Shown: positions 2,309 to 55,175 of the stretch, piece after piece
Position numbering within the stretch: the stretch's first letter is position 1
Layout: each line of letters opens with the position of its first letter
Assembly (NCBI GenBank): GCA_934597345.1
Contig: CAKTRJ010000014.1
Location: 1-55,281 of the forward strand
Direction of reading: 5' to 3'
From: an uncultured Oscillospiraceae bacterium
GTDB taxonomy: Bacteria; Bacillota; Clostridia; Oscillospirales; Oscillospiraceae
Length of the DNA stretch: 55,281 nt
Translations under genes and position numbers: made by a program
The notes under the pieces: generated by a model
Told to the model about the DNA's origin: nothing
Database searches by the model: none
What the model saw: only the letters and a program-made list of their open reading frames with translations

Positions 2309-4459
2309 ATGTCGACTATTATCACCCATCGCCAATTCCCCCAGTACCACAAGTACACCATGGATCTGGCCGGCCGTCCTCTGACTCTTGAGGTGGGCAA
2401 GCTGGCCGAGCTGGCCAACGCCGCCGTCATGGTGGGCTACGGCGATACCCGCGTGCTGTGCTGCGTCACCGCCTCCGCCCGTCCCCGCGACGGTATCGAC
2501 TTCTTCCCCCTGAGCGTGGACTTTGAGGAGAAGATGTACTCCGTGGGCCGCATCCCCGGCAGCTTCAACCGCCGTGAGGGCCGCCCCGGCGAGAAGGGCA
2601 TCCTGACCTCCCGCGTCATCGACCGCCCCATCCGCCCGCTGTTCCCCTACGATTTCCGCAATGACGTGTCCGTGATGTGCACCGTCATGGCCGTGGATCA
2701 CGACTGCTCTCCCGAGATCGCCGCGCTGATCGGCACCTCCGCCGCGCTGGCTATCTCCGACATTCCCTGGAACGGCCCTGTGGGCGCTTTGAAGGTGGGT
2801 CTGGTGGACGGCAAGCTGGTGCTGAACCCTGACAGCGAGCAGCGCAAGGTCTCCGATCTGGACGTGACCGTGGTCTCCACCGGCAAGAAGGTGGTCATGA
2901 TCGAAGCGGGCGCCAACCAGGTCACCAACGACACCATGTTCGAGGCCATCAAGATGGCCCACGAGGAGAACCAGAAGCAGATCGCCCTCATCAACCAGAT
3001 GGTGGCCGAGATCGGCAAGCCCAAGTTCGACTATCCCCACGCCGACTTCGATCAGGAGCTGTTTGACAAGATCGTAAGCGCCACCATGGACGACGCCAAG
3101 GCCGCCATGGATACCGATGACAAGAACGTCCGCGAGGCCCGCTGGAACCAGCTGATCGAGAAGTGGCACGAGCTGTTCCTGGAGGACTATCCCAACATGG
3201 ATCAGTATCTGGACGAGATCACCTATAAGTTCCAGAAGAAGATCGTCAAGGCATGGCTGCTGGAGGGTCACCGTGTGGATGGCCGCCAGAAGAACGAGAT
3301 CCGTCCTCTGGATGCCGAGGTGGGCGTGCTGCCCCGCGTTCACGGCTCCGGCCTGTTCACCCGCGGCCAGACCCAGGTGCTGAGCGTCTGCACCCTGGAC
3401 ACCCTGTCCGCCAACCAGAAGCTGGACACCATCTGGGAAGAGACCGAGAAGCGCTATATGCACCACTACAACTTCCCCGGCTACTCCGTGGGCGAGGCCA
3501 AGCCCGCCCGCAGCCCCGGCCGCCGCGAGATCGGCCATGGCGCGCTGGCCGAGCGTGCCCTGCTGCCTGTGATCCCTCCCGTGGAGGAGTTCCCCTACGC
3601 CATCCGCGTGGTGTCTGAGGTGGTCAGCTCCAACGGCTCCACCTCCCAGGGCTCCATCTGCGGCTCTACGCTGGCCCTGATGGACGCCGGTGTGCCCATC
3701 TCCGCGCCTGTTGCCGGTATCTCCTGCGGCCTGATCCAGGACGACGAGGGCGGCTTCACCACCTTCATCGACATCCAGGGCGTGGAGGACTTCCACGGCG
3801 AGATGGACTTCAAGGTGGCCGGCACCAAGAAGGGTATCACCGCCATCCAGATGGATCTGAAGAACGACGGCCTGACCATGGAGATCATCCGCAATGCGCT
3901 GGATATCACCTATGACGCCCGCTGCCAGATCCTGGATCAGGTGATGCTGCCCGTCATCAGCGAGCCTCGCCCCGAGGTCAGCAAGTACGCCCCCAAGATG
4001 ATCACCATGCACATTGATCCCGACCGCATCCGCGAGGTCATCGGCAAGGGCGGCAGCGTGATCCAGAAGATCGTGGCCGAGTCCGGCGCCAAGGTGGACA
4101 TCGACGACGACGGCACTATCCATATCGCCTCCCCCGACGCGGAGAGCTGCGACAAGGCCAAGAAGTTCATCGACGACATCGTGTTCGTGCCCGAGGTGGG
4201 CAAGCTGTACTACGGCCGCGTCGTGCGCTTGATGACCTTCGGTGCTTTCGTGGAGATCGCCCCCGGTAAGGACGGTCTGGTCCACATCTCCAAGCTGGCC
4301 GACAAGCGCATCGAGAAGGTGGAGGACGCCTGCAAGGTGGGCGACATGATGTGGGTCAAGTTCATGGAGATCGACGAGAAGGGCCGCTGGAACCTGTCTC
4401 ACAAGGACGCCATGAAGGAGATCGCCGCCAAGGAAGCCGCCGGCGAGAAGATCATGTAA
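2309..4459 (+). CDS. pnp: Polynucleotide phosphorylase
   Basis: The 716-residue protein has the full PNPase domain order: an RNase PH-like domain (about 15-145), an all-helical linker, a second, catalytic RNase PH domain (about 325-550, with FTRGQTQVL and the SNGSTSQGSICG region), a KH domain with VIGKGGSVIQ (about 580) and an S1 domain beginning near YYGRVVRLMTFGAFVEI. It degrades RNA 3' to 5' using phosphate and joins the RNA degradosome. Length is normal. AAAAGGAG precedes the ATG. A terminator closes the unit downstream, and the leader hairpin suggests autoregulation. Confidence 0.97.
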   Translation: MSTIITHRQFPQYHKYTMDLAGRPLTLEVGKLAELANAAVMVGYGDTRVLCCVTASARPRDGIDFFPLSVDFEEKMYSVGRIPGSFNRREGRPGEKGILTSRVIDRPIRPLFPYDFRNDVSVMCTVMAVDHDCSPEIAALIGTSAALAISDIPWNGPVGALKVGLVDGKLVLNPDSEQRKVSDLDVTVVSTGKKVVMIEAGANQVTNDTMFEAIKMAHEENQKQIALINQMVAEIGKPKFDYPHADFDQELFDKIVSATMDDAKAAMDTDDKNVREARWNQLIEKWHELFLEDYPNMDQYLDEITYKFQKKIVKAWLLEGHRVDGRQKNEIRPLDAEVGVLPRVHGSGLFTRGQTQVLSVCTLDTLSANQKLDTIWEETEKRYMHHYNFPGYSVGEAKPARSPGRREIGHGALAERALLPVIPPVEEFPYAIRVVSEVVSSNGSTSQGSICGSTLALMDAGVPISAPVAGISCGLIQDDEGGFTTFIDIQGVEDFHGEMDFKVAGTKKGITAIQMDLKNDGLTMEIIRNALDITYDARCQILDQVMLPVISEPRPEVSKYAPKMITMHIDPDRIREVIGKGGSVIQKIVAESGAKVDIDDDGTIHIASPDAESCDKAKKFIDDIVFVPEVGKLYYGRVVRLMTFGAFVEIAPGKDGLVHISKLADKRIEKVEDACKVGDMMWVKFMEIDEKGRWNLSHKDAMKEIAAKEAAGEKIM

Positions 4460-45216: not shown

Positions 45217-45237
45217 CAACTAAATATTGTGTGGCTA

Positions 45238-45385
45238 TCTAAAATCTGATGTGGGATTTTTTTGTTTTAGAGTTTTTGAGAAAGGCGGTTGCTCTAAAGT
45301 CTTATGTGGGGTTTTCTCGTTTAGGGATGTTCGGGGAAAAGCGGTCGCTGTAAAGTTTTTTGTGGGATTTCGCAGAAGAATGTAG
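45238..45385. repeat. Degenerate tandem repeat of about 55 bp, 2.5 copies
   Basis: Units start at 45238, 45293 and 45349 with TCTAAAATCTGATGTGGGAT, TCTAAAGTCTTATGTGGGGT and TGTAAAGTTTTTTGTGGGAT. The segments between share GTTTTAG/GTTTAGG and AAAGGCGGTTGC/AAAAGCGGTCGC. An inverted single copy appears at 55135-55175. The rest of the gap to 45480 holds no gene; ACACCTCCATCTT at about 45399 duplicates the rpmH leader at 45071. Confidence 0.6.
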
Positions 45386-45480
45386 TTTCTCCAAAAAAAC
45401 ACCTCCATCTTGAGTGTTAGGTGCTGGTGCTTTTCAGAAAGCTGGGCATTGCTACAGCTATGTATGTTTTGGGAAAAGCG

Positions 45481-45524
45481 CAGAAGAAGCCGGTGGACAT
45501 CCCCAATCGGAGTTGCCCACCGGC
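45481..45524 (-). terminator. Terminator of the type I RM operon
   Basis: On the minus strand GCCGGTGG and CCACCGGC pair around a 20-nt loop with some inner pairing, followed by TTCTTCTG. Confidence 0.6.
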
Positions 45525-45531
45525 TTGTATA

Positions 45532-46170
45532 TTATTTGCAAATTTTTCTTTGAACATTAGAATATTTCTCCCGAAGAGTGCGGTAGTTAATCGGCACAGG
45601 AGAGATTCGCTGAATTACTGTCCATAACCCGTTTTTTTCAAAAGGATAGTTGTCAAGATAGTCTACAAATGGCATTCGCAAAAGCTGTTGAGTCTGGAAG
45701 TCGAACCCCATCCCCGTTTCGACACCATAGGTCAGCTTTGGGGTCGATTTTGTAACGACATCAGTAGAAAGGACAATCGGGTAAGAGGCATTGGTAATAC
45801 CTGCGGAATTCGGTAACGGCATATAACAGGCCAAGTCGATAACCTTATCATCTACTGTTACCCATGAGTGGTCGAACGGGCTCATATCCGGGCTGCCTAT
45901 CTCGCCAACACAAAGCTCCGTTTTGAATCCCTGCTCAGACAGAGCAACATACATTGCAGACGCGGTAGCATGGCAACCACCGAGAAGATTATTCTTCTTC
46001 ATGTAACGAAGCATGGCGCAAATCGTATCAGAAAGTTTGCTGGGATATCCGTTTTCAGCGACTGTGTCCTTAATGCACTGATAGATGTCAGGAACATCCT
46101 TGCTCAGACAGCACTTCTTATACTTTTTGCCACTTCCACAAGGGCAGGGGCCATTCCGTCCAATTCTCAT
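45532..46170 (-). CDS. SEC-C plus transglutaminase-like cysteine-peptidase-fold protein
   Basis: The 212-residue protein starts with a SEC-C zinc motif (GRNGPCPCGSGKKYKKCC; ligands C9, C11, C20, C21) and continues with a transglutaminase/papain-like domain: GGCHATASAMYVALSEQGF (Cys66), FDHSWVTVDDKVIDLA (His101 and Asp112) form a Cys-His-Asp triad. SEC-C motifs often tether proteins to other partners or to RNA/ribosomes. The ATG overlaps the hsdS stop by one base (TAATG), so it is the fourth gene of the restriction-modification operon. It could be a regulator or peptidase acting on RM subunits, an immunity protein or an unrelated passenger. I know of no described function for this pairing. Confidence 0.75.
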   Translation of the reverse strand: MRIGRNGPCPCGSGKKYKKCCLSKDVPDIYQCIKDTVAENGYPSKLSDTICAMLRYMKKNNLLGGCHATASAMYVALSEQGFKTELCVGEIGSPDMSPFDHSWVTVDDKVIDLACYMPLPNSAGITNASYPIVLSTDVVTKSTPKLTYGVETGMGFDFQTQQLLRMPFVDYLDNYPFEKNGLWTVIQRISPVPINYRTLREKYSNVQRKICK

Positions 46171-47345
46171 TAAATATCACGCCCCTTCACCTTGACCTGT
46201 CCGTTCATCAGCATGGGAAGGAGGAAGTCACGGAGAGAGGTAAGTTCGGCATTTTCTTCCCGGACTTGAATTTGCTTTTGCACCCATGTATCGAATTTTA
46301 TTGCCATATTTTTGAGGCAATCATCTTGGGGTAATACAACTTTGAATTTTGAAATATAATCCTTGTTGGCATGAGGAACGGTAGAACCGGTATTGACTTT
46401 CTTGAATACAGATTGATATTTTTGCATGATTACATATACAAAACTATCTGTCACTCTACCATTAACCTTTTCCAATTTTGCAAATGTAGACCCCAACGCA
46501 CCATAATGACCTACATAAGTTTCACTGCTGGCAGCGCCGTCCATAACCATGATTGTATCTCCTGCCGTCGTAATCATCCCTTGCTTTTTACAATACGATG
46601 TCGGCACGGCGTTCACGGCTTCAATTGTAAGATATGGAATAAGATTGTTCCCGTCGTTTGTATCGAATACTTCGGTAGGAATACGGCCTTTTACAAAACG
46701 GAAAAGTTCATCAAGTTGATAAACCTCCCACCCCTCCGGGATTTCTCTTTTCAGCTCCTCATTCCAGACCATCTTGCCGCCGCTGCTCTTGTAGGGTTTG
46801 CCGTTCTCGTCGGGGAAGTCGAACTGAACGAACCAGTAATCGTAGAGGTCCTTCGCCATGCCTTCCAGCTCGGCGGCAATGGCGTTGTTGTTGTCAATTT
46901 TTGCGTCGATGGCCGACAACAAAGTAGCAACGTCTTTTTGACATTGTACGTCAGGAATGTCGATTTCAAGACGGCTCAAATTCTCTTGTGTTAATTTCGG
47001 CTGTGCAGACCCGGTAATATATCCAGATAGGTCCAACCCTTTTAACAGGTAATAAATATATGTCAGGTTGGTTCCTGCTTTTTCACCCAAAATATGGGCG
47101 TGATTGTTGACCCAAAACTTTCCTTTTGCGAAAGTAACAATACTATTTTTCCTTGAACGTAGGTTTTCCCCATCTTCTGCAACCAGCAGATATTCTCCAT
47201 CGAAAATGTAATCATCAACATAGTCAACAATTCCCTGTGCTCCGTAATATGGATACAGTTTTTCTAAATCTGCCCTGTCCTTTTGGGCAATAGGAACCCG
47301 CTTATAGTCAAGGTTCTCTGTCACATCTCCGAGTTTAGCCCTCAT
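46170..47345 (-). CDS. hsdS: Type I restriction-modification specificity subunit HsdS
   Basis: The 391-residue protein has two target-recognition domains, each followed by a conserved helical spacer: SRLEIDIPDVQCQKDVATLLSAIDAKIDNNNAIAAELEGMAKDLYDYWF for the first, and FDTWVQKQIQVREENAELTSLRDFLLPMLMNGQV for the second. It gives the DNA target to the methylase and nuclease. The ATG at 47345 is preferred (GAGGTG six bases upstream); one four codons earlier is possible. It overlaps the end of hsdM by about ten bases. The two halves differ, so the target should be a bipartite asymmetric site. No inverted hsdS copy or recombinase gene is seen, so there is no sign of phase variation. Confidence 0.92.
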   Translation of the reverse strand: MRAKLGDVTENLDYKRVPIAQKDRADLEKLYPYYGAQGIVDYVDDYIFDGEYLLVAEDGENLRSRKNSIVTFAKGKFWVNNHAHILGEKAGTNLTYIYYLLKGLDLSGYITGSAQPKLTQENLSRLEIDIPDVQCQKDVATLLSAIDAKIDNNNAIAAELEGMAKDLYDYWFVQFDFPDENGKPYKSSGGKMVWNEELKREIPEGWEVYQLDELFRFVKGRIPTEVFDTNDGNNLIPYLTIEAVNAVPTSYCKKQGMITTAGDTIMVMDGAASSETYVGHYGALGSTFAKLEKVNGRVTDSFVYVIMQKYQSVFKKVNTGSTVPHANKDYISKFKVVLPQDDCLKNMAIKFDTWVQKQIQVREENAELTSLRDFLLPMLMNGQVKVKGRDI

Positions 47346-48993
47346 AGAACACCTCATTAAGCTGTCTTAAAATGTTCTTTTCCAGCTCGTGACCCTCAAC
47401 AAACCGCTCACTTAGACGAGCCTTGTAGTCATCCATCTTGGACTGGAATTCTTCCGGGGTGATGTCGATATGTTCGATTTTTACCTCGAAATACTGACCT
47501 GCGGAGAACGAGTAGTTCTTCTCGGTCATCTCATCATAAGGAACAGATACGCTGAAATCATCCTCGACCTTACGATTGGTGAATACATCAATGATGCAAT
47601 TCACTTCTTCGTCGGAAAGGACCGTGCGCTGATTCTTGCCATCCTTCACCTTCTTGCCAAGGCTGGAGGCGTCCACCAAAAAGGCTTCCTCTTGTGCGTT
47701 AGCATTGTCAAGGAAAAGAATCGAGACATTCGTCCCGGTATTCGCAAAAATATTGGATGGCATACTGATAACGCCTTTGATGATATGCTTGTCTACCATC
47801 CGCTGCCGGATGGCATACTCAATCTTGCTCTTTGCGGTCAGAAATCCCGTGGGGACAACGATGGCAGCCTTACCGTTATCTTTCATGCAGTACATGATAT
47901 GCTGAATGAACAGCAGATAAATCGCCATAGATTCCTTCTTGCTGGCAGGAATTTTCGGAACGCCCGCAAAGAAACGGTCCGTCTCAGACCACTTCTGCTC
48001 GATGGCATCACGGGTGGAGGAAAAGTCCAGCTTGAAGGGCGGATTAGCTGTCTGGTAGGCATACTTTTTCAAGCCGGAGGTCGGCTCATGCTCTGTCTGG
48101 AAATGGGCGGGATTCAGCAGCGTATCGCCTTGAATGATATGCCCCAAAGACTCTGTCATGCCGTTGAGCATCATGTTCAAGCGCAGGAACCGAGTGGATT
48201 TGGAAGAGATGTCCTGCGTATAAACAATGGCACGGTTCAGGCCGTTCTCTTGACCGAGTTCATGGGCCAAATGCAGCACCAAGGACCCGGAGCCGGCAGC
48301 GGGGTCGGAAATCTCCGATGCCTCAACTTTGTCACTCATTCCAACAAGACAACGGGCGATGATGGAACTCACAGCCTGCGGAGTAAAATATTCCGCATAC
48401 ACGCCGCTTGCCACATTATAGTCTTTGATGAGGTACTCAAAAATGGTGGAATAGAAGTCAAAAGAACCCGCAAACGCACTGGAGAAATCAAATTTATCCT
48501 GTGCGATGATGCCAAAGATGTTCTTGGCAAAGTTGTTGCGGTTGGAAGGCTCAACGGGAGTGGAAATCGGTTCAAACAGGGGTCTGTAGCTGCCCTCAGC
48601 CGTCTCCACAGCAAAGATGTCATTCCGGGTATTCTGGGCTATGCGAACCAGCGCATCATCGAACTGCTTGTAGAAATCGGCCTGCTCTACATGGTTGATG
48701 AGGTACTGGATGGTATCTTCATATCCGAATGCCACATCACCGGAAGTGGTATCATAGAATGCGTCCAGCTCGTCATTCTCGTTTTTCAGAATTTCCTCGA
48801 TGGTCTCACCGATTTCTTCCGCAAACTTGGACAGGTTATACATGAACTTATCGTTCAGGAACTTATAGAGGAACACAGAAGTAATGATGCGCTCCTCCTC
48901 GCCCTGATTGGCAAGGCCAGCCTGTGCGCTCAGAGCTTTCAGCTCATCAATGATTTGCTTGATTTTGGTTTCTGTTTCAAAAATGTTGGACAT
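47335..48993 (-). CDS. hsdM: Type I restriction-modification DNA methylase HsdM
   Basis: The 552-residue protein has an N-terminal helical HsdM domain, a SAM-binding motif SDPAAGSGSLVLHLA (about residue 232) and the adenine-methylase catalytic motif TANPPF (about 320). It transfers methyl groups to N6 of adenine at the HsdS target. Located 15 bp after hsdR. A GGGGAG-like site precedes the ATG. Codon use is less GC-biased than in genes left of 45 kb, suggesting recent transfer. Confidence 0.94.
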   Translation of the reverse strand: MSNIFETETKIKQIIDELKALSAQAGLANQGEEERIITSVFLYKFLNDKFMYNLSKFAEEIGETIEEILKNENDELDAFYDTTSGDVAFGYEDTIQYLINHVEQADFYKQFDDALVRIAQNTRNDIFAVETAEGSYRPLFEPISTPVEPSNRNNFAKNIFGIIAQDKFDFSSAFAGSFDFYSTIFEYLIKDYNVASGVYAEYFTPQAVSSIIARCLVGMSDKVEASEISDPAAGSGSLVLHLAHELGQENGLNRAIVYTQDISSKSTRFLRLNMMLNGMTESLGHIIQGDTLLNPAHFQTEHEPTSGLKKYAYQTANPPFKLDFSSTRDAIEQKWSETDRFFAGVPKIPASKKESMAIYLLFIQHIMYCMKDNGKAAIVVPTGFLTAKSKIEYAIRQRMVDKHIIKGVISMPSNIFANTGTNVSILFLDNANAQEEAFLVDASSLGKKVKDGKNQRTVLSDEEVNCIIDVFTNRKVEDDFSVSVPYDEMTEKNYSFSAGQYFEVKIEHIDITPEEFQSKMDDYKARLSERFVEGHELEKNILRQLNEVFYEG

Positions 48994-49008
48994 GATTATT
49001 CTCCCCGG

Positions 49009-52000
49009 TTAGAAAATCCTCATGTTGGAATAGGTCTCGCCGAGGAAGTCGGCATACCAGTCCTTGAGGTTCAATTTTTTATAGAGGCCCGATTTCAAAA
49101 GCTGAGTAGTAGTGTTTTTCTTGACTGTGTTCACGAAGGATTCCCGCCCATGCAGAATGAGGATGTTGGAACCCTCGATGTCTTTGACGGCAGCGTAGGC
49201 CACATCTGTCAATTTTGCGAGGTCTTCTTTGTCGAACTCAGGGTGCATCTCCACCACATCAGAATAGGTTTTGACGAATGCGTAATTGCCGCCATAACGG
49301 GCGGCCAGACGCTCGTTTTCCTCGTTGATGCAGCGAAGGTCTTCCAAGATTTTCAGCAGCTTTCCGTTGACCTCCGAGAGATTGTTGAGGTCAATGTACT
49401 CCAGCTCGACGAAGATTTTTTTGAGCAGGTCTTCCAAGCTGACAATCTTCTCGGCCCCTGTGTTTTTGTTCCGTCGGATTTCTTTCTGAATATCCGTGAC
49501 GGCATCTGTGAACTGCTTATAGCCGTCAATATCAGAGACATCCTTGAAGGCTTTCGTCAGCTTGCTCATATCCATGATGCTGATTTTGACCTTGAAGAAC
49601 TCATAGACGATTTTGACGACTTCCTCATTTGAGACAACAGCCATCAGGTCGATGGGTTTTGTAGTAAGGTTCAGGAAGTCGATACGATTTTGCACTTCCC
49701 GCAACAGCTTCTTGATGCGGTCTTCATCAATCTGCGCCGCCAGTGTCATGGCTCTTGACAGCAGGAATTCCGTACGGCAGTCCTTGATACCGTTCAGGTC
49801 GCGTCGGATTGCCAGCAATGTATCCCTATCCAGCTTTACAAGCTGCTGAGAAAACAGTTCCAGATTCACAGAGGTATCAACCAAAGTGTTCATGTGGGCT
49901 TGGTATGCATGATACTTTTTGTCGATATCCTCAGGGCCGATGACCAGACCAGCCAGAGAGAAATGCTCATCGGAGTCATCGTTGAAATCGTCCTCCATCT
50001 CCTTGAGGTACATTTCGATGGTACGGTCATATTCCTTTTCGATATCGACAAAGTCCACGATGTAGCCGTACTGATAAACCTTGCCTGTCTTGGGGTTCTT
50101 GTAAGGACGGTTTACCCGGCTGATGGTCTGGAGCAAAGTGTGCTCCTTGGCGTTTCTGAGCAGGTACATCTTTTTGAGCCGGGGCACATCGTAGCCCGTG
50201 GTAAGCATTTGGTGAACAATCAGGATGTCCGGCTTGAGTGTCTTGCGGAACGCCTTTTGTGTCTCTTTGTTGATGTCGCTGCGTGGAGCATCTTCGTCCG
50301 AAATGACCAATCCCGTTTCGAGCGTGGAAACATTCTTATCAAACCACTCTTTGACTTTGCGAGCCTGCGGGTTAGAGGAGCATACAATCATTCCACCAAT
50401 GGTAGAATCAGCGTTCACAAGACGGAAGTTCAGGAAGTCGGTCTCTATAAACTTACCGAGGCTGCTGATATACGCCCCGTCCGTTCGCATAGTGTCTTTC
50501 TTGGCATCAATTTGGGACTTTTCAAACTGAAGATTTCTATGGATATCCGCCCGGACGGTGGTATCAATCTCCTCCTTTTTGATGCGGAGGGTGTATCCGT
50601 CAGAGATGGATTTGTCGTAGAAATACTTATGGATGTAGTCTCCAAATTTCAGATTAGAACGCTCTTTTTTGGAAAGAAGCGGAGTACCGGTCATAGCGAT
50701 ATAGATGGCGTTGTCATCCACCAGCATCAGGTTCTTGAAAAACTGACCTGTCTGCTTATAAGAGCGGTGGGCTTCGTCCACGAAGAAGATGCGCTGAATT
50801 TTGGCATCGTACACATTGCTGACCTGAGGGAGTGCATCGGTGAATTTCTGAATATTCACCACCACGATTTCACCGTTTGAGCGAAGGTCTCCCCGTTTTG
50901 GAAGCGGGCGCTTGAGTTCCTTTTCAAAGTCGGAGCGGCTATTGACCTCAATCGCATTCAGCCCACGGTTACGCATTTCGTCACGAACCTGAATAAGCAG
51001 GTCCAGACGGTCTACCACATAATAGAACTTAGCGGTGATGCCTCGTTCAGAGTAGTAGTCTCTGATGATTCTGGTAGAGAAAGCTGACAGTTCCGTCTTG
51101 CCGCTGCCCTGCGTATGGAAGATGATGCCAGACTTCCCACCACCGTCAATGCGCTTCAGGATAGCTTGGCTGGCAAAGAACTGTGGGTAGCGCATGATGT
51201 GTTTCTGAGTAACGGGCTGCCCTGTCTTTTCATCAATCGTATCGACATAAAAGAAACCGTATTGCAGCAGATACATCATACGAGGGATATCGAAGAAAGA
51301 GGTCACGAACCGATTGCATGGTGTGCTCGGCTGTAAGTTGGTCTGAAATTCCTCCGTATCCGCATAGCTGGGGCTATACCCGTTGTCTTTAAGGATATAC
51401 CGCACCTCATCCATATAGATTTCCTTGAACCCAGAGGTCTTCGGATTCTCCTCACGGAAGAAGGAGAAGAAGGTGCGGTTCCCATTTGGCGTAGAATAGA
51501 ATGAACCAGCCCGCACTTCTTCGGCAGGGGCGGCGTCATTGTCAGTCTCATACTCCATGTTATTGCTGAAGGTAACAAACTGGAGCATATTGAAGTATTT
51601 CTTGAATTCTGGTACTTGAAGCCGCTCGTCCAGCATACGGTGGAATTCTTTCTGGATACCACCCTCGTTGTTTGGCTTCTTCACTTCGAGGAATCCAAGA
51701 GGAATACCATTGACAAGAACGGTCACATCCGGGCGGAAAGACCCCTTTGCTTCCGGTCCAAAGGTCAGTTCATCAACGACAGCAAAATCGTTATCTTCGG
51801 GATGGTCAAAGTCAATGAGCTTGATGTCTGCGGTCTGGTCCAGCAGTCGGCCCAGAAACTCCTTACCCATATCATTGTTCTTAATGATGCCATGGATTTC
51901 CTCAATCGTTGCCAAAATCTGCTCGACAGTCAGGTTCTTATCACGGTTGATTCGTTGGATTGCAGGGACAAAACGGTTGAGAAAGATTCTGGTTTCGGGG

Positions 52001-52104
52001 TGGATATCCGCATCCTTCAAAGACTGGTACTCATAACCCAGCCGCATGAATTGTACTGTTGCGGGAAATTTTACTCGCATATCTTCATTCCAAGGAACTC
52101 TCAC
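49009..52104 (-). CDS. hsdR: Type I restriction endonuclease subunit HsdR
   Basis: The 1031-residue protein has an N-terminal PD-(D/E)xK nuclease domain (D126, E140 and K142 in RPDVTVLVNGIPLGFLEVKK), a DEAD-like ATP-driven translocase with Walker A GSGKTEL (about 330) and Walker B VDEAH (about 445), further helicase motifs (MTGTPL, TTGYDVPRL, SRVNRPYK), and a C-terminal helical domain. It translocates DNA and cuts unmodified targets. The start is GTG at 52104 with AAAGGGG eight bases upstream; an ATG eight codons later is possible. Length is near that of type IC subunits. Confidence 0.94.
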   Translation of the reverse strand: MRVPWNEDMRVKFPATVQFMRLGYEYQSLKDADIHPETRIFLNRFVPAIQRINRDKNLTVEQILATIEEIHGIIKNNDMGKEFLGRLLDQTADIKLIDFDHPEDNDFAVVDELTFGPEAKGSFRPDVTVLVNGIPLGFLEVKKPNNEGGIQKEFHRMLDERLQVPEFKKYFNMLQFVTFSNNMEYETDNDAAPAEEVRAGSFYSTPNGNRTFFSFFREENPKTSGFKEIYMDEVRYILKDNGYSPSYADTEEFQTNLQPSTPCNRFVTSFFDIPRMMYLLQYGFFYVDTIDEKTGQPVTQKHIMRYPQFFASQAILKRIDGGGKSGIIFHTQGSGKTELSAFSTRIIRDYYSERGITAKFYYVVDRLDLLIQVRDEMRNRGLNAIEVNSRSDFEKELKRPLPKRGDLRSNGEIVVVNIQKFTDALPQVSNVYDAKIQRIFFVDEAHRSYKQTGQFFKNLMLVDDNAIYIAMTGTPLLSKKERSNLKFGDYIHKYFYDKSISDGYTLRIKKEEIDTTVRADIHRNLQFEKSQIDAKKDTMRTDGAYISSLGKFIETDFLNFRLVNADSTIGGMIVCSSNPQARKVKEWFDKNVSTLETGLVISDEDAPRSDINKETQKAFRKTLKPDILIVHQMLTTGYDVPRLKKMYLLRNAKEHTLLQTISRVNRPYKNPKTGKVYQYGYIVDFVDIEKEYDRTIEMYLKEMEDDFNDDSDEHFSLAGLVIGPEDIDKKYHAYQAHMNTLVDTSVNLELFSQQLVKLDRDTLLAIRRDLNGIKDCRTEFLLSRAMTLAAQIDEDRIKKLLREVQNRIDFLNLTTKPIDLMAVVSNEEVVKIVYEFFKVKISIMDMSKLTKAFKDVSDIDGYKQFTDAVTDIQKEIRRNKNTGAEKIVSLEDLLKKIFVELEYIDLNNLSEVNGKLLKILEDLRCINEENERLAARYGGNYAFVKTYSDVVEMHPEFDKEDLAKLTDVAYAAVKDIEGSNILILHGRESFVNTVKKNTTTQLLKSGLYKKLNLKDWYADFLGETYSNMRIF

Positions 52105-52175
52105 CTGTTGATGCCCCTTTCTTTAGCTTCTACAGCAATAATCATCCTAAAAGGCCAGTGTTTTCAGAGGGATAT

Positions 52176-52214
52176 CATGCCTCTGCATAGAGGCATGAAA
52201 ACGCCGGCGTTTTC
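52176..52214. promoter_or_regulatory. Two palindromes in the hsdR leader
   Basis: CATGCCTCT-GCAT-AGAGGCATG (52176-52197) and GAAAACGCCGGCGTTTTC (52197-52214, an 18-bp perfect palindrome) lie head to tail between the hsdR promoter and its start. They could be operators or hairpins delaying restriction; inference only. Confidence 0.5.
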
Positions 52215-52225
52215 CCGATAATATA

Positions 52226-52253
52226 AATATACCACTTTTCCATATTATTTCAA
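52226..52253 (-). promoter_or_regulatory. Promoter of the hsdRMS operon
   Basis: On the minus strand TTGAAA, a 16-bp spacer and TATATT. The leader is about 115 nt and includes two palindromes. Confidence 0.65.
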
Positions 52254-52318
52254 GTATTTGCGTCCCGCAAAAGTGCAAATCAGATAACTATTTCGCCACA
52301 CTTTTTTGCAATATTCTC

Positions 52319-52347
52319 TTGCAAGTATAGAACGCTTGTACTATACT
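52319..52347 (+). promoter_or_regulatory. Promoter of the transposase gene
   Basis: TTGCAA, a 17-bp spacer and TATACT. An inverted repeat GCAAAAGTG/CACTTTTTTGC (52267-52309) lies just upstream and may be part of an IS end. Confidence 0.65.
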
Positions 52348-52396
52348 ATAAACGAGGCGGCGGTCGCCTTAATTTCACTATCGGAGGGCTGTACTT

Positions 52397-53974
52397 ATGG
52401 CAAGGAATCATACAGATATTACCCAACTGGAAGAAGTGGACATGAGGGAGGTTGCCCAAAAGCCCTGCTTGAATCTGGAAGGCATCATCGAGGAATCCTG
52501 CCTTGAGCCCATAAACAGCGATGACTACTGGCTTTTCAAGTGCCGCATAGAGGACTATCGTAATCGCCGATGTCCCCTTTGCAAAGGCACCGCCGTCCAC
52601 AGTCATGGGGATTATGGAAAACCGCGACTGATTCACGATATCAATGTCGGGAAAAAGCGCGTGGATATTCTGCTGAAGGTAAAACGATACCTCTGCGATT
52701 CGTGTGAAAAGACATTTACAAATATACCGGAATGCATCCTCGAAAACCGGCAGATGACAGACCGGCTTTTTGAGCTGATACAACGAGAATCTTTTCGGCA
52801 CCCGTTCACCGAGGTGGCGGAAGAATACGGTTATTCCATCACCACTATCGCTACTATATTCGACGACTACGGCGCGAAGCTGGAGGCCAAGCGCGGCCCA
52901 GTCGTTGCGCCACGGGTACTCGGTATCGACGAAAAACACATTGTAAACAATATGCGTGCGGTCTTTGTGGACGGTGAAAGCGGCTGCCTGTTGGAAATGT
53001 GCGAGGACAACAAACGCGACACTATCCTGCATACGATAGAAAACATGGTCGATTACGACACAAATATTGAGATAGTCACAATGGACATGGCCTGCGGATA
53101 CCGCAGTTATATACAGGAATGCCTGCCCCGTGCAACCATTGTCGTGGACAAATTCCATGTGTACCAAGACTTTCTCACAAAGGTCGGCACGGTGAAAACG
53201 AAAATCACTGAACGCATCAAAAGCCGCATCAATGCCATGCCGGAGGGTTCTGAGAAAGAGCGCCTGAATGCCATAATGAAGATGGCGCAAGCGAACAACT
53301 ATCTGTTCAAATATGGGGAGGAGAAAATAGCGGAGGACTCCAGTCGCCTCTCCAAGATGGCTAATATCTGTGAGGCTTTCCCTGAGTTCAACCACCTGCG
53401 GCTTATCCGCACCGGCTTTGAGCGCATCTACGCTTCCACAGATAGAGCTTCCGCAGAAGCTGTCTGTGACAAGTGGGCGAAGCTGATTCCGCCTGCAGGT
53501 CAAAAGCAAATCACCGCATGGGAAGAGCACTTCCATGTGGATGCAGAGCTATTTGCAGAGCTCAGACCCTTTCGCAACACGATTACTCGCAACTGGCGGA
53601 ATGAAATTTTCAACTACTTCAATGTGAACTGCCAGTTCACCAACGCGGTGGCAGAAGGATTGAACTGCTTTATTGAGAGGATTAACCGGCAGGGAAACGG
53701 ATACGGTTTCAAACGGCTACGTATCAAAGCGCTGTTCTGGGATACCGCAGGTGAGCGGGTCAAATATGTAGTAAAGGAAAATCGGCTCTGGAAGTCGTCC
53801 AAGCCTGTTCATTCCTTCTTTACCGGTTCCGGCAGCAGCTTTTCCTTCAATAATGGGCACTATGAGACCACCTATAGCATCGAACCGGAGGAAATCCCGC
53901 GAAGGCGGACGGCACCATTCTCCGTTTTGGAGTATTATCAGCTACTCAAGGACGCCGGCTTCAATATACTTTAG
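52397..53974 (+). mobile_element. ISL3-family transposase (intact ORF)
   Basis: The 525-residue protein has the ISL3 layout: an N-terminal zinc finger (CPLC at 59-62 and CDSC at 100-103), a helix-turn-helix region (TEVAEEYGYSITTIATIF), and a DDE core with GIDEKH (D178), TMDMACGYR (D230), VVDKFHVYQ and EGLNCFIERINRQGNGYGF carrying the Glu. GGAGGG precedes the ATG. Terminal inverted repeats could not be paired with confidence, so the element limits are open. Lower GC than the surrounding chromosome. Confidence 0.88.
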
Positions 53975-53990
53975 TGAGGGGGAAATTATT

Positions 53991-54218
53991 ATGGCAATGG
54001 CAGATGTACGGATTGACATGGAAACCGCCCTGTACGAGCAAATGGCCGCGCTGTGCGCCAAACTTGGCACCACCGTTGAGGCGGTGGCGGGACGGTTCTG
54101 CGAGGAATTCGTGCGGATGGAAGCGCCTCCCGTGCCTGAGTCCTACGCCTCTATGAGCGTGGAGGACAAAATCGACTTTATTGCTCAGAATATTCTGAGG
54201 GAGTACAATTCCAAGTAA
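53991..54218 (+). CDS. Small RelB/DinJ-like protein
   Basis: The 75-residue protein has ADVRIDMETALYEQMAALCAKLGTTVEAVAGRFCEEFVRM, which resembles the ribbon-helix-helix N terminus of RelB/DinJ antitoxins, followed by a short tail with SVEDKIDFIAQNIL. GAGGGG precedes the ATG, 16 bp after the transposase stop. No toxin gene is adjacent: the next genes are on the other strand. It may be an orphan antitoxin, a remnant or a transposon passenger. A strong terminator follows. Confidence 0.65.
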   Translation: MAMADVRIDMETALYEQMAALCAKLGTTVEAVAGRFCEEFVRMEAPPVPESYASMSVEDKIDFIAQNILREYNSK

Positions 54219-54229
54219 CGCGAAAAGAT

Positions 54230-54266
54230 ACCCCTGTGAGGATTGACCTCACAGGGGTTCTCTTTG
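54230..54266 (+). terminator. Terminator after the RelB-like gene
   Basis: ACCCCTGTGAGG-ATTGA-CCTCACAGGGGT followed by TCTCTTTGTT; a 12-bp perfect stem. Confidence 0.85.
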
Positions 54267-54270
54267 TTCT

Positions 54271-54666
54271 TCAGGCACCGAGCGTACCGCTGCGTAGTGC
54301 CTCCACCAGCGGCAGCACCTGCCACTTGGGGATGGTGTACTCGTTGCCATCCAGCAGCAACAGCCAGTATACCTGCCGCTCCAGCAGCAGGGTCTTGTCC
54401 GCGTTCCATCGCTTGATGCCGACCTCGTAGACGCCATCTCCCTGCAACTCCACATCGAACCGTCGGCCTTTTGGTGTCTTTGGCGGCCACTGGTATTGCA
54501 GGAACTTGCGGGCAAAGCGGTACTTGGGGTCTGGACCCATGATGCGGGACACATAGGGATACGCCCGCGTGTCGGGGATATGCGGCACGAATATGGAGTA
54601 GCCCCAGTACCAAATGTCATCGTCGTCCTCGCACGGAGGAACATTGTTTCTGTGGCTCGTGTCCAT
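54271..54666 (-). CDS. Unknown 131-residue protein
   Basis: The protein is rich in Trp, Tyr and Pro (IWYWGYSIFVPHIPDTRAYPYVSRIMGPDPKYRFARKFLQYQW) and ends with YTIPKWQVLPLVEALRSG; the middle has ERQVYWLLLLDGNEY. It has no signal peptide or membrane helix. ATG at 54666 with AGAGGG upstream is preferred; a TTG at 54696 would overlap the upstream gene. It lies 19 bp after that gene on the same strand. No family recognised. Confidence 0.6.
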   Translation of the reverse strand: MDTSHRNNVPPCEDDDDIWYWGYSIFVPHIPDTRAYPYVSRIMGPDPKYRFARKFLQYQWPPKTPKGRRFDVELQGDGVYEVGIKRWNADKTLLLERQVYWLLLLDGNEYTIPKWQVLPLVEALRSGTLGA

Positions 54667-54685
54667 CGGAGTTGCCCTCTGCCGC

Positions 54686-55000
54686 CTACGACTCAAACCC
54701 CGGCGGCGTCAGCTTCCGAAGGATTTCCGCCGCTTCCTCGGCGGTGTAGTGCTTGTAGAGACCTGCTGACGGATTACTCTTTTCCTCATAGAGTATGTTT
54801 GCGATTTCAAGGTTTTCCTCGTCGCCCATGTTACGAGCCTTGTTTCGCAAGCGTCCCAGTTCACGAAGCTCTACTTCTTCAACAGAGAGCTCACCAGAAA
54901 GGATTGCCTTTTGCCTGTCGCTGTAAAACGGCGCAAAGGGTGCCACATAGTCTGGACTATCCTTGTTCGTGTAAAGGAAATGCGGCGTACCTTTTTTCAT
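54686..55000 (-). CDS. Unknown 104-residue protein
   Basis: The protein starts MKKGTPHFLYTNKDSPDYVAP and continues with AILSGELSVEEVELRELGRLRNKARNMGDEENLEIANILYEE, mostly helical with many charged residues. No motif is recognised. AGGAGG stands before the ATG, but inside a large palindrome that could hide it. It probably forms a unit with the 131-residue gene downstream. Confidence 0.6.
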   Translation of the reverse strand: MKKGTPHFLYTNKDSPDYVAPFAPFYSDRQKAILSGELSVEEVELRELGRLRNKARNMGDEENLEIANILYEEKSNPSAGLYKHYTAEEAAEILRKLTPPGFES

Positions 55001-55005
55001 AAAAA

Positions 55006-55041
55006 CACCTCCTGTCATAGAAAATTCTACAACAGGAGGTG
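55006..55041. promoter_or_regulatory. Palindrome that can sequester the ribosome binding site
   Basis: CACCTCCTGT (55006-55015) and ACAGGAGGTG (55032-55041) are 10-bp perfect arms; TAGAA and TTCTA pair inside. In the minus-strand mRNA the AGGAGG of the 104-residue gene falls in the stem. Another hairpin GTGCT-TTGT-AGCAC follows at 55043-55056. It could also be an operator or recombination site. Confidence 0.5.
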
Positions 55042-55134
55042 CGTGCTTTGTAGCACATAACTTTGAAAATGCAGTCTTTCTTTTTTTTGGTGCTAAAAAC
55101 ACAATCATTCACTTATGGAACGACCACGCTTCCT

Positions 55135-55175
55135 TCCCCCAATCCCACATCAAATCTTAGATATCCATATTGTGT
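55135..55175 (-). repeat. Inverted copy of the left-edge repeat motif
   Basis: On the minus strand GGATATCTAAGATTTGATGT followed by GGGATT matches GGCTATCTAAAATCTGATGT followed by GGGATT at 45233-45258, in opposite orientation, at 23 of 26 positions. Confidence 0.6.

Follow-up and report, generated by a model that had tools for sequence, protein, structure and literature searches.

A SEC-C/transglutaminase-like gene coupled to a type I restriction-modification operon, a candidate accessory gene that changes partners among bacterial defense operons

Introduction

PrrC, encoded in the EcoprrI type I restriction-modification (RM) locus, is a tRNA nuclease that is activated upon inhibition of restriction (PMC12707154). 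In proteins that join it to HEPN, helicase, and Vsr domains, a transglutaminase-like peptidase has been read as a further line of defense that acts by protein cleavage (PMC3710099); transglutaminase-like peptidase domains are rare in the VMAP ternary systems (PMC7159879), and the small metal-binding domain of SecA binds SecB, nearly the same domain being found in YecA and YchJ (PMC8076867). Here we describe a gene that brings such parts together. It lies in a stretch of 55,281 nucleotides (nt) from an uncultured Oscillospiraceae bacterium (assembly GCA_934597345.1, contig CAKTRJ010000014.1), called the window throughout, in which hsdR, hsdM, and hsdS of a type I RM system are followed by a fourth gene encoding a 212-amino-acid (aa) protein with a SEC-C motif and a transglutaminase-like domain.

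A preliminary description of this DNA had proposed that the fourth gene serves the type I complex, whether by processing a subunit, by controlling restriction alleviation in place of ClpXP, or as a back-up effector when restriction fails, and its author knew of no described system of this makeup. In the part of the literature covered, we likewise found no description of a SEC-C/transglutaminase gene in RM, Hachiman, or Gabija operons; the parts are known, and the combination is new and recurrent. We tentatively view the fourth gene as an accessory of defense operons that swaps partners, encodes a protein-acting Cys enzyme, likely a back-up effector, and is not a dedicated type I subunit.

Results

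The operon lies on the minus strand, where open reading frames (ORFs) and Pfam matches identify, all in one row, hsdR (49009-52104; 1031 aa, GTG start), hsdM (47335-48993; 552 aa, N6-adenine methyltransferase), hsdS (46170-47357; 395 aa, specificity subunit), and the fourth gene (45532-46170). hsdM and hsdS overlap by 23 nt, and the hsdS stop and the fourth-gene start overlap as TAATG, with one base common to both, which confirms the coupled four-gene arrangement first described. Pfam domains far over their cut-offs were found in HsdR (HSDR_N, SWI2_SNF2, and ResIII), HsdM (N6_Mtase), and HsdS (Methylase_S), so that the type I domain set of PF04313, PF18766, PF02384, and PF01420 (two stretches in HsdS) is present, as are the motifs GSGKT, DEAH, and PD..ExK in HsdR and DPAAGSG and NPPF in HsdM; by domains and motifs, the hsd genes look intact and of type I. 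A hairpin at 45487-45526 (minus strand; -30.8 kcal/mol, z -5.5, 0/200 shuffles as stable) begins 5 nt past the fourth-gene stop. Its position fits the end of a transcription unit, and with no clean T run behind it, it is a possible rather than a certain terminator.

The protein encoded by the fourth gene begins with a SEC-C motif at residues 5 to 22 (46105-46158, minus strand; PF02810, 32.7 bits versus a cut-off of 20.4) that follows the pattern CxCx8C[CH], with C9, C11, C20, and C21 as the likely metal ligands. Next comes a match to Transglut_core3 (PF13471) spanning residues 38 to 112, which at 24.8 bits falls 1.2 bits short of the cut-off of 26; all 17 members of a transglutaminase-only alignment nevertheless match this family at E ≤ 0.1 (best, 7.9e-9), and it appears in the precomputed annotation of the near-identical protein P0001, and the proposed SEC-C plus transglutaminase-like architecture is supported. 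The C-terminal half has no Pfam match, yet it holds conserved positions, including an LW motif. Cys66, the predicted nucleophile (codon 45973-45975), His101 in the motif FDHSW (codon 45868-45870), and Asp112 (codon 45835-45837), all on the minus strand, are invariant in 34/34 rows of an alignment of closer relatives (33 of 38 family proteins plus the window, five short ones left out; two rows have a broken C terminus) and in all 156 aligned sequences of a wider set. The triad claimed for the protein is thus intact, no loss of it having been seen in any relative aligned, and triad and family conservation led us to reject a chance assembly or pseudogene.

A structure model of the protein is confident (predicted local distance difference test score [pLDDT], 90.7) and shows the triad in the following layout: Cys66 is the first residue of a helix, His101 lies in a strand, and Asp112 ends the next strand. 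With a conserved Cys at a helix start and conserved His and Asp on neighboring strands, the modeled protein shows the features of the transglutaminase-like superfamily, and its active-site layout looks like that of a protein-cutting or protein-modifying enzyme. Foldseek gave no match in the PDB at E ≤ 0.001 and one weak match among viral models, and a profile search of PDB sequences gave a single match with an E value of 0.76; matches to sequences of solved structures were mostly to the zinc motifs of SecA and YchJ. A subunit-processing enzyme, or an arylamine N-acetyltransferase-like acyltransferase with a small-molecule substrate, is a very improbable alternative. Distant relatives are annotated as lasso peptide biosynthesis protein or N-acetyltransferase, 4/17 relatives match PF00797 weakly, and PF13471 also holds the McjB-type lasso leader peptidases. 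The window protein itself scores 14.4 bits with the lasso model (McjB B2, NF033537) versus a cut-off of 33, on which ground a part in lasso biosynthesis was rejected for it; it has no row for PF00797 at E ≤ 1, and the sequence around its His (FDHSWV..D) is more like transglutaminase/peptidase cores.

Relatives were gathered in several searches. From 105 matched proteins, 38 were kept as the family (P0001 to P0038), the nearest cluster, P0001, being 97% identical to the window protein and representing 386 member sequences; the other 67 match over 6 to 53% of the query and, judging by the six sequences read, appear to share mainly SEC-C. One locus search kept 1 of 80 loci (L001), and the remaining 79, with no transglutaminase-like ORF in a profile scan, served as a control; another kept 9 of 80 (L081 to L089), among which L082 is 99.97% identical to L081 and L087 is ~86 to 91% identical to L086 in aligned pieces, so that each pair was counted once. 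A further protein search used the 120 matches listed out of 381, and proteins from Vibrio, Pseudomonas, and Pantoea are among its matches. Across genome sets that overlap in part (397, 396, 398, 59, and 391 genomes), the gene is rare, with three new matches (G257, G832, and G1546) besides the seed genome G001: one match in 396 genomes (G001), two in 398 (G001 and G832), one in 59 (G832 itself), two in 391 (G001 and G1546), and three in 397, two of which were dropped (L169 and L170, ~50-residue matches in other, secreted-looking proteins). A two-genome set gave 0/2 matches, and the phylum of a Vibrio genome gave 0/339, an empty answer that shows nothing, as the set held no positive genome. Thirty-seven Salmonella and four Escherichia plasmid records match the window protein, whereas a tblastn search of phage records gave no match for it or for the relative in L164.

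These searches left 19 nonredundant loci with readable neighbors, the window included. In the window's branch of the tree, 7/7 loci have a same-strand defense gene within 17 nt. Three of them are further type I RM loci: the relative lies 1 nt after HsdM in L001, 5 nt before HsdS in L178 (with RhuM upstream), and, in L083, 10 nt behind a GmrSD-like gene located downstream of hsdM-hsdS-hsdR. The other three pair it with different systems: in L085 it follows HamB of a HamA-HamB (Hachiman) pair by 17 nt; in L081 it precedes AbiH by 8 nt; and in L184 it precedes an NgoFVII-like PLD nuclease by 8 nt, with GajA and GajB (Gabija) upstream; a single gene that has no Pfam family separates GajAB from the transglutaminase-like gene. 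PADLOC models support these assignments (GajA, E 1.9e-205; GajB, 5.5e-183; HamA, 2e-172; HamB, E 0). In a wider Bacillota set, a practical group rather than a clade that comprises the window and ten loci (the SEC-C bearers plus the three SEC-C-free loci nearest the window in the tree), 8/11 loci have a same-strand defense gene within 73 nt, the additional one being the SEC-C locus L177, where the relative lies 73 nt after a TIR-domain gene. A recurrent link to defense genes is therefore upheld, as a property of the window's branch and not of the whole superfamily.

Several neighbors of these loci were recorded in their own right. In L085 (3821-12307), the HamA-HamB pair and the transglutaminase-like gene are accompanied by a C5 DNA methyltransferase and by a Shedu-C-like match that falls short of the cut-off, on a contig filed as viral. 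Just upstream of GajA in L184, a 392-aa protein (2577-3755) has a SEC-C-like N terminus by eye, with no Pfam match at E ≤ 0.001 and no PADLOC match at E ≤ 0.0001; this Gabija locus may thus have two SEC-C-type genes.

A tree of 156 sequences (FastTree, midpoint-rooted, support values not printed; seven short proteins left out) places the RM-linked members in three positions, namely the window, L083, and L001 with L178. The SEC-C-free clade of L001 and L178 also includes the Hachiman-linked L085, these three being the SEC-C-free members with defense neighbors, and L177, L084, and L162 branch with distant loci. Operon position, conservation, predicted fold, and change of partners are what the analyses show directly.

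Seen from the RM side, the picture agrees: none of nine HsdM relatives (43 to 59% identity, on contigs of a viral collection) shows the fourth gene in its flanks, that of L188 reaching only ~490 nt beyond the hsdS gene. Further HsdM matches lie on plasmids. Eight of the nine (L185 to L192) have, by eye, the hsdR-hsdM-hsdS order of the window; L187 and L190 have small additional ORFs between hsdM and hsdS, hsdM is divided over two ORFs in L185, and L193 shows hsdM-hsdS only. A fourth subunit dedicated to this RM family was accordingly set aside. In two of these loci, L186 and L189, hsdM is followed by pieces of hsdS in both orientations together with a recombinase-like gene, as in phase-variable type I systems (by eye).

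These neighborhoods bear on how the enzyme would act. The claim that its role is tied to the type I complex was not supported, as genes of this type are also found behind HamAB and one gene beyond GajAB, and none of the nine HsdM relatives shows one in its flanks; for the same reasons, it becomes less likely that the enzyme processes an Hsd subunit or takes the place of ClpXP for HsdR. A dedicated protease or modifying enzyme that acts on HsdR (or on HamB or GajA/B), preventing self-attack in place of ClpXP-type restriction alleviation, nonetheless has points in its favor: translation is coupled after hsdS, the relatives lie close behind hsdM in L001 and hamB in L085, an ATP-dependent DNA helicase or translocase is present in each of type I RM, Hachiman, and Gabija, and degradation of HsdR by ClpXP is an established control of this kind (PMC12707154). 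The partners, however, have no homologous subunit in common beyond generic helicase domains, no helicase stands next to the gene in the AbiH or TIR locus, and the nine HsdM relatives do not show the gene in their flanks, so that we consider such a regulator a serious rival but an unlikely one. With no subunit common to the different partners, the enzyme more probably has a trigger of its own or a general target than a single subunit to trim or control.

Other observations weigh against the reading that we favor. The TIR match in L177 scores 23.9 bits versus a Pfam cut-off of 28 (the PADLOC candidate family PDC-S35 gives 63.6 bits), and 3/11 loci of the Bacillota set have no adjoining same-strand defense gene, namely the SEC-C loci L084 and L161, with none next door, and L162, a SEC-C locus with a type IIG-like gene 577 nt away in divergent orientation; L161 and L162, at 28% identity to the window, are no closer to it than the distant L086 (28%). 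Eight distant loci (L086, L088, L089, L163, L164, L165, L166, and L202), which lack SEC-C, are carried by plasmids or phage-like contigs, and are 25 to 28% identical to the window (the seven aligned of eight), have no recognized defense system adjoining in 8/8 cases, as judged by a Pfam scan of 10 proteins (L086, L088, L163, L164, and L165) and otherwise by annotation or eye. Over all 19 loci the defense link is thus found in 8, and the gene may have a general role on mobile DNA. The 7/7 count is a small sample and was formed after the tree was seen; in the control, a homologue of the marker proteins used for the tested loci turned up in 1/79 SEC-C-only loci, a count that is only a guide, as the control is largely housekeeping and the markers were drawn from the tested loci. 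No adjacent inhibitor gene, which a toxic effector might need, was recognized. The concern raised at the outset, that homologues might mostly lie away from defense genes, therefore fails for the window's branch (7/7 beside them) but holds for the distant relatives (3/4 other SEC-C loci and 8/8 SEC-C-free ones).

Such loci point to another serious rival, an independent single-gene defense module or toxin that clusters in defense islands and is merely cotranscribed with its neighbors. Copies with no recognized defense neighbor on plasmids and phage-like contigs, the diversity of neighbors, and the existence of forms with and without SEC-C are all consistent with it, but overlap with the neighboring gene or a spacing of ≤18 nt in seven loci suggests selection for joint expression, and this explanation, too, seems unlikely to us.

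Among the distant loci, L088 has FRG, DUF3800, and DUF4917 genes as neighbors, families that are often seen in defense regions and that are suggestive only. An AbiEii-type toxin gene lies ~3.7 kb from the relative in L165, a Fic gene ~4.5 kb from that in L202, and a C5-methyltransferase-like ORF (by eye) ~1.7 kb from that in L089. The relative in L166 (7992-8501) is annotated as an acetyltransferase and stands on an IncX1 conjugative plasmid beside an H-NS-like gene and hha.

The operon itself is probably cargo of an ISL3-family transposon. An ISL3-family transposase gene (52397-53974, plus strand; PF01610, E 4.6e-28) adjoins and diverges from hsdR; a 26-bp inverted repeat at 45233-45258 (plus strand) has a 23/26 identical counterpart at 55141-55166 (minus strand), and an exact 9-bp direct repeat, read as a target-site duplication, abuts the left repeat (45224-45232) and recurs outside the right one (55167-55175). 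Transposase, terminal inverted repeats, and target-site duplication, the hallmarks of an ISL3-family transposon, are thus all present in a candidate element of 9.9 kb (45233-55166) that encloses the whole RM operon and the transposase. G+C content, read in 2-kb steps, is 45 to 52% inside it versus 55 to 66% elsewhere in the window, and together the inverted repeats, direct repeats, and G+C shift are good evidence for a single 9.9-kb insertion. No second copy of the terminal repeats was found in the relative loci examined, and among plasmids there was neither a near DNA relative of the operon nor a near match of the transposase end.

A place on a candidate transposon, together with relatives on Bacillus, Pseudomonas, Salmonella, and Escherichia plasmids and on phage-like contigs, would suit a counter-defense or carrier-protection gene of mobile elements that acts against host or rival defenses and was caught in mobile defense cargo. 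In the window's branch, however, the gene is embedded in or directly beside defense operons, and a system cotranscribed with its own inhibitor would be disabled; we judge this improbable.

At the left end of the element (45233-45420), a motif like TAAA.T.T.ATGTGGG occurs about three times and resembles subterminal transposase-binding repeats (by eye). Between the transposase gene and the right inverted repeat, two overlapping ORFs on the minus strand (54271-54696 and 54686-55108) have no Pfam family above cut-off and are possible further cargo. At the window's edge (1-74), a weak, truncated tRNA match scores 29.9 bits versus a cut-off of 29, with none called by ARAGORN.

Discussion

Among the roles first proposed for the fourth gene, we tentatively prefer that of a back-up effector. 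The enzyme would be produced together with the primary defense system and, once that system's attack has failed or the cell has suffered damage, would act as a second line by attacking or modifying proteins via Cys66, through cleavage or through deamidation/transamidation; the catalytic activity, the protein substrate, the back-up role, and the trigger are what we infer. Its logic would be that of PrrC in EcoprrI, with protein replacing tRNA as the target. SEC-C may bring the enzyme to nascent or unfolded chains, a function that would have to be optional, since L001, L178, and L085 do without the motif. More speculatively, one small Cys-His-Asp enzyme might plug into type I RM, Hachiman, Gabija, AbiH, and TIR loci and give them a common protein-directed second strike or safety control. 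If such a system-independent module exists, defenses of unrelated origin share it, and a conserved thiol enzyme beside type I RM, Hachiman, and Gabija would join systems that are now studied apart.

Compared with known systems, the hsd part of the locus is that of type I RM in general, complete and in the order seen by eye in L185 to L192; the fourth gene is what sets it apart from the 9/9 relatives examined. The enclosing element resembles ISL3-family transposons in its transposase, terminal inverted repeats, and short target duplication, and differs from them in its cargo, a four-gene defense operon, and in a duplication that reads as 9 bp; ISL3 target duplications are usually 8 bp. The SEC-C of the fourth gene is of the same motif type as that of YecA, YchJ, and the C-terminal metal-binding domain of SecA, and we know of no transglutaminase-like domain or RM operon associated with those proteins. 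Transglut_core3 (PF13471) has the same Cys-His-Asp order and spacing; outside the region matched by that family, the fourth-gene protein has SEC-C at its start and, in its conserved C-terminal half, an LW motif, and its gene neighbors hsd genes. The giant HEPN-transglutaminase-helicase-Vsr proteins and VMAP systems likewise place a transglutaminase-like peptidase in a setting of biological conflict or defense, but there it is one domain of a large protein, whereas here it forms a small separate SEC-C gene that changes partners.

PrrC is the textbook back-up that senses the failure of restriction, and the two loci are alike in having an accessory gene coupled to a type I RM operon, here by TAATG, for which a second-line role is proposed. 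They differ in that PrrC is a tRNA anticodon nuclease with no domain in common with the fourth-gene protein, in which only SEC-C and transglutaminase-like matches were seen and neither the ATPase nor the HEPN anticodon nuclease of PrrC/RloC was found, and in that relatives of the fourth gene also accompany Hachiman and Gabija. The fourth gene could represent a second kind of back-up, or an off-switch that several systems share.

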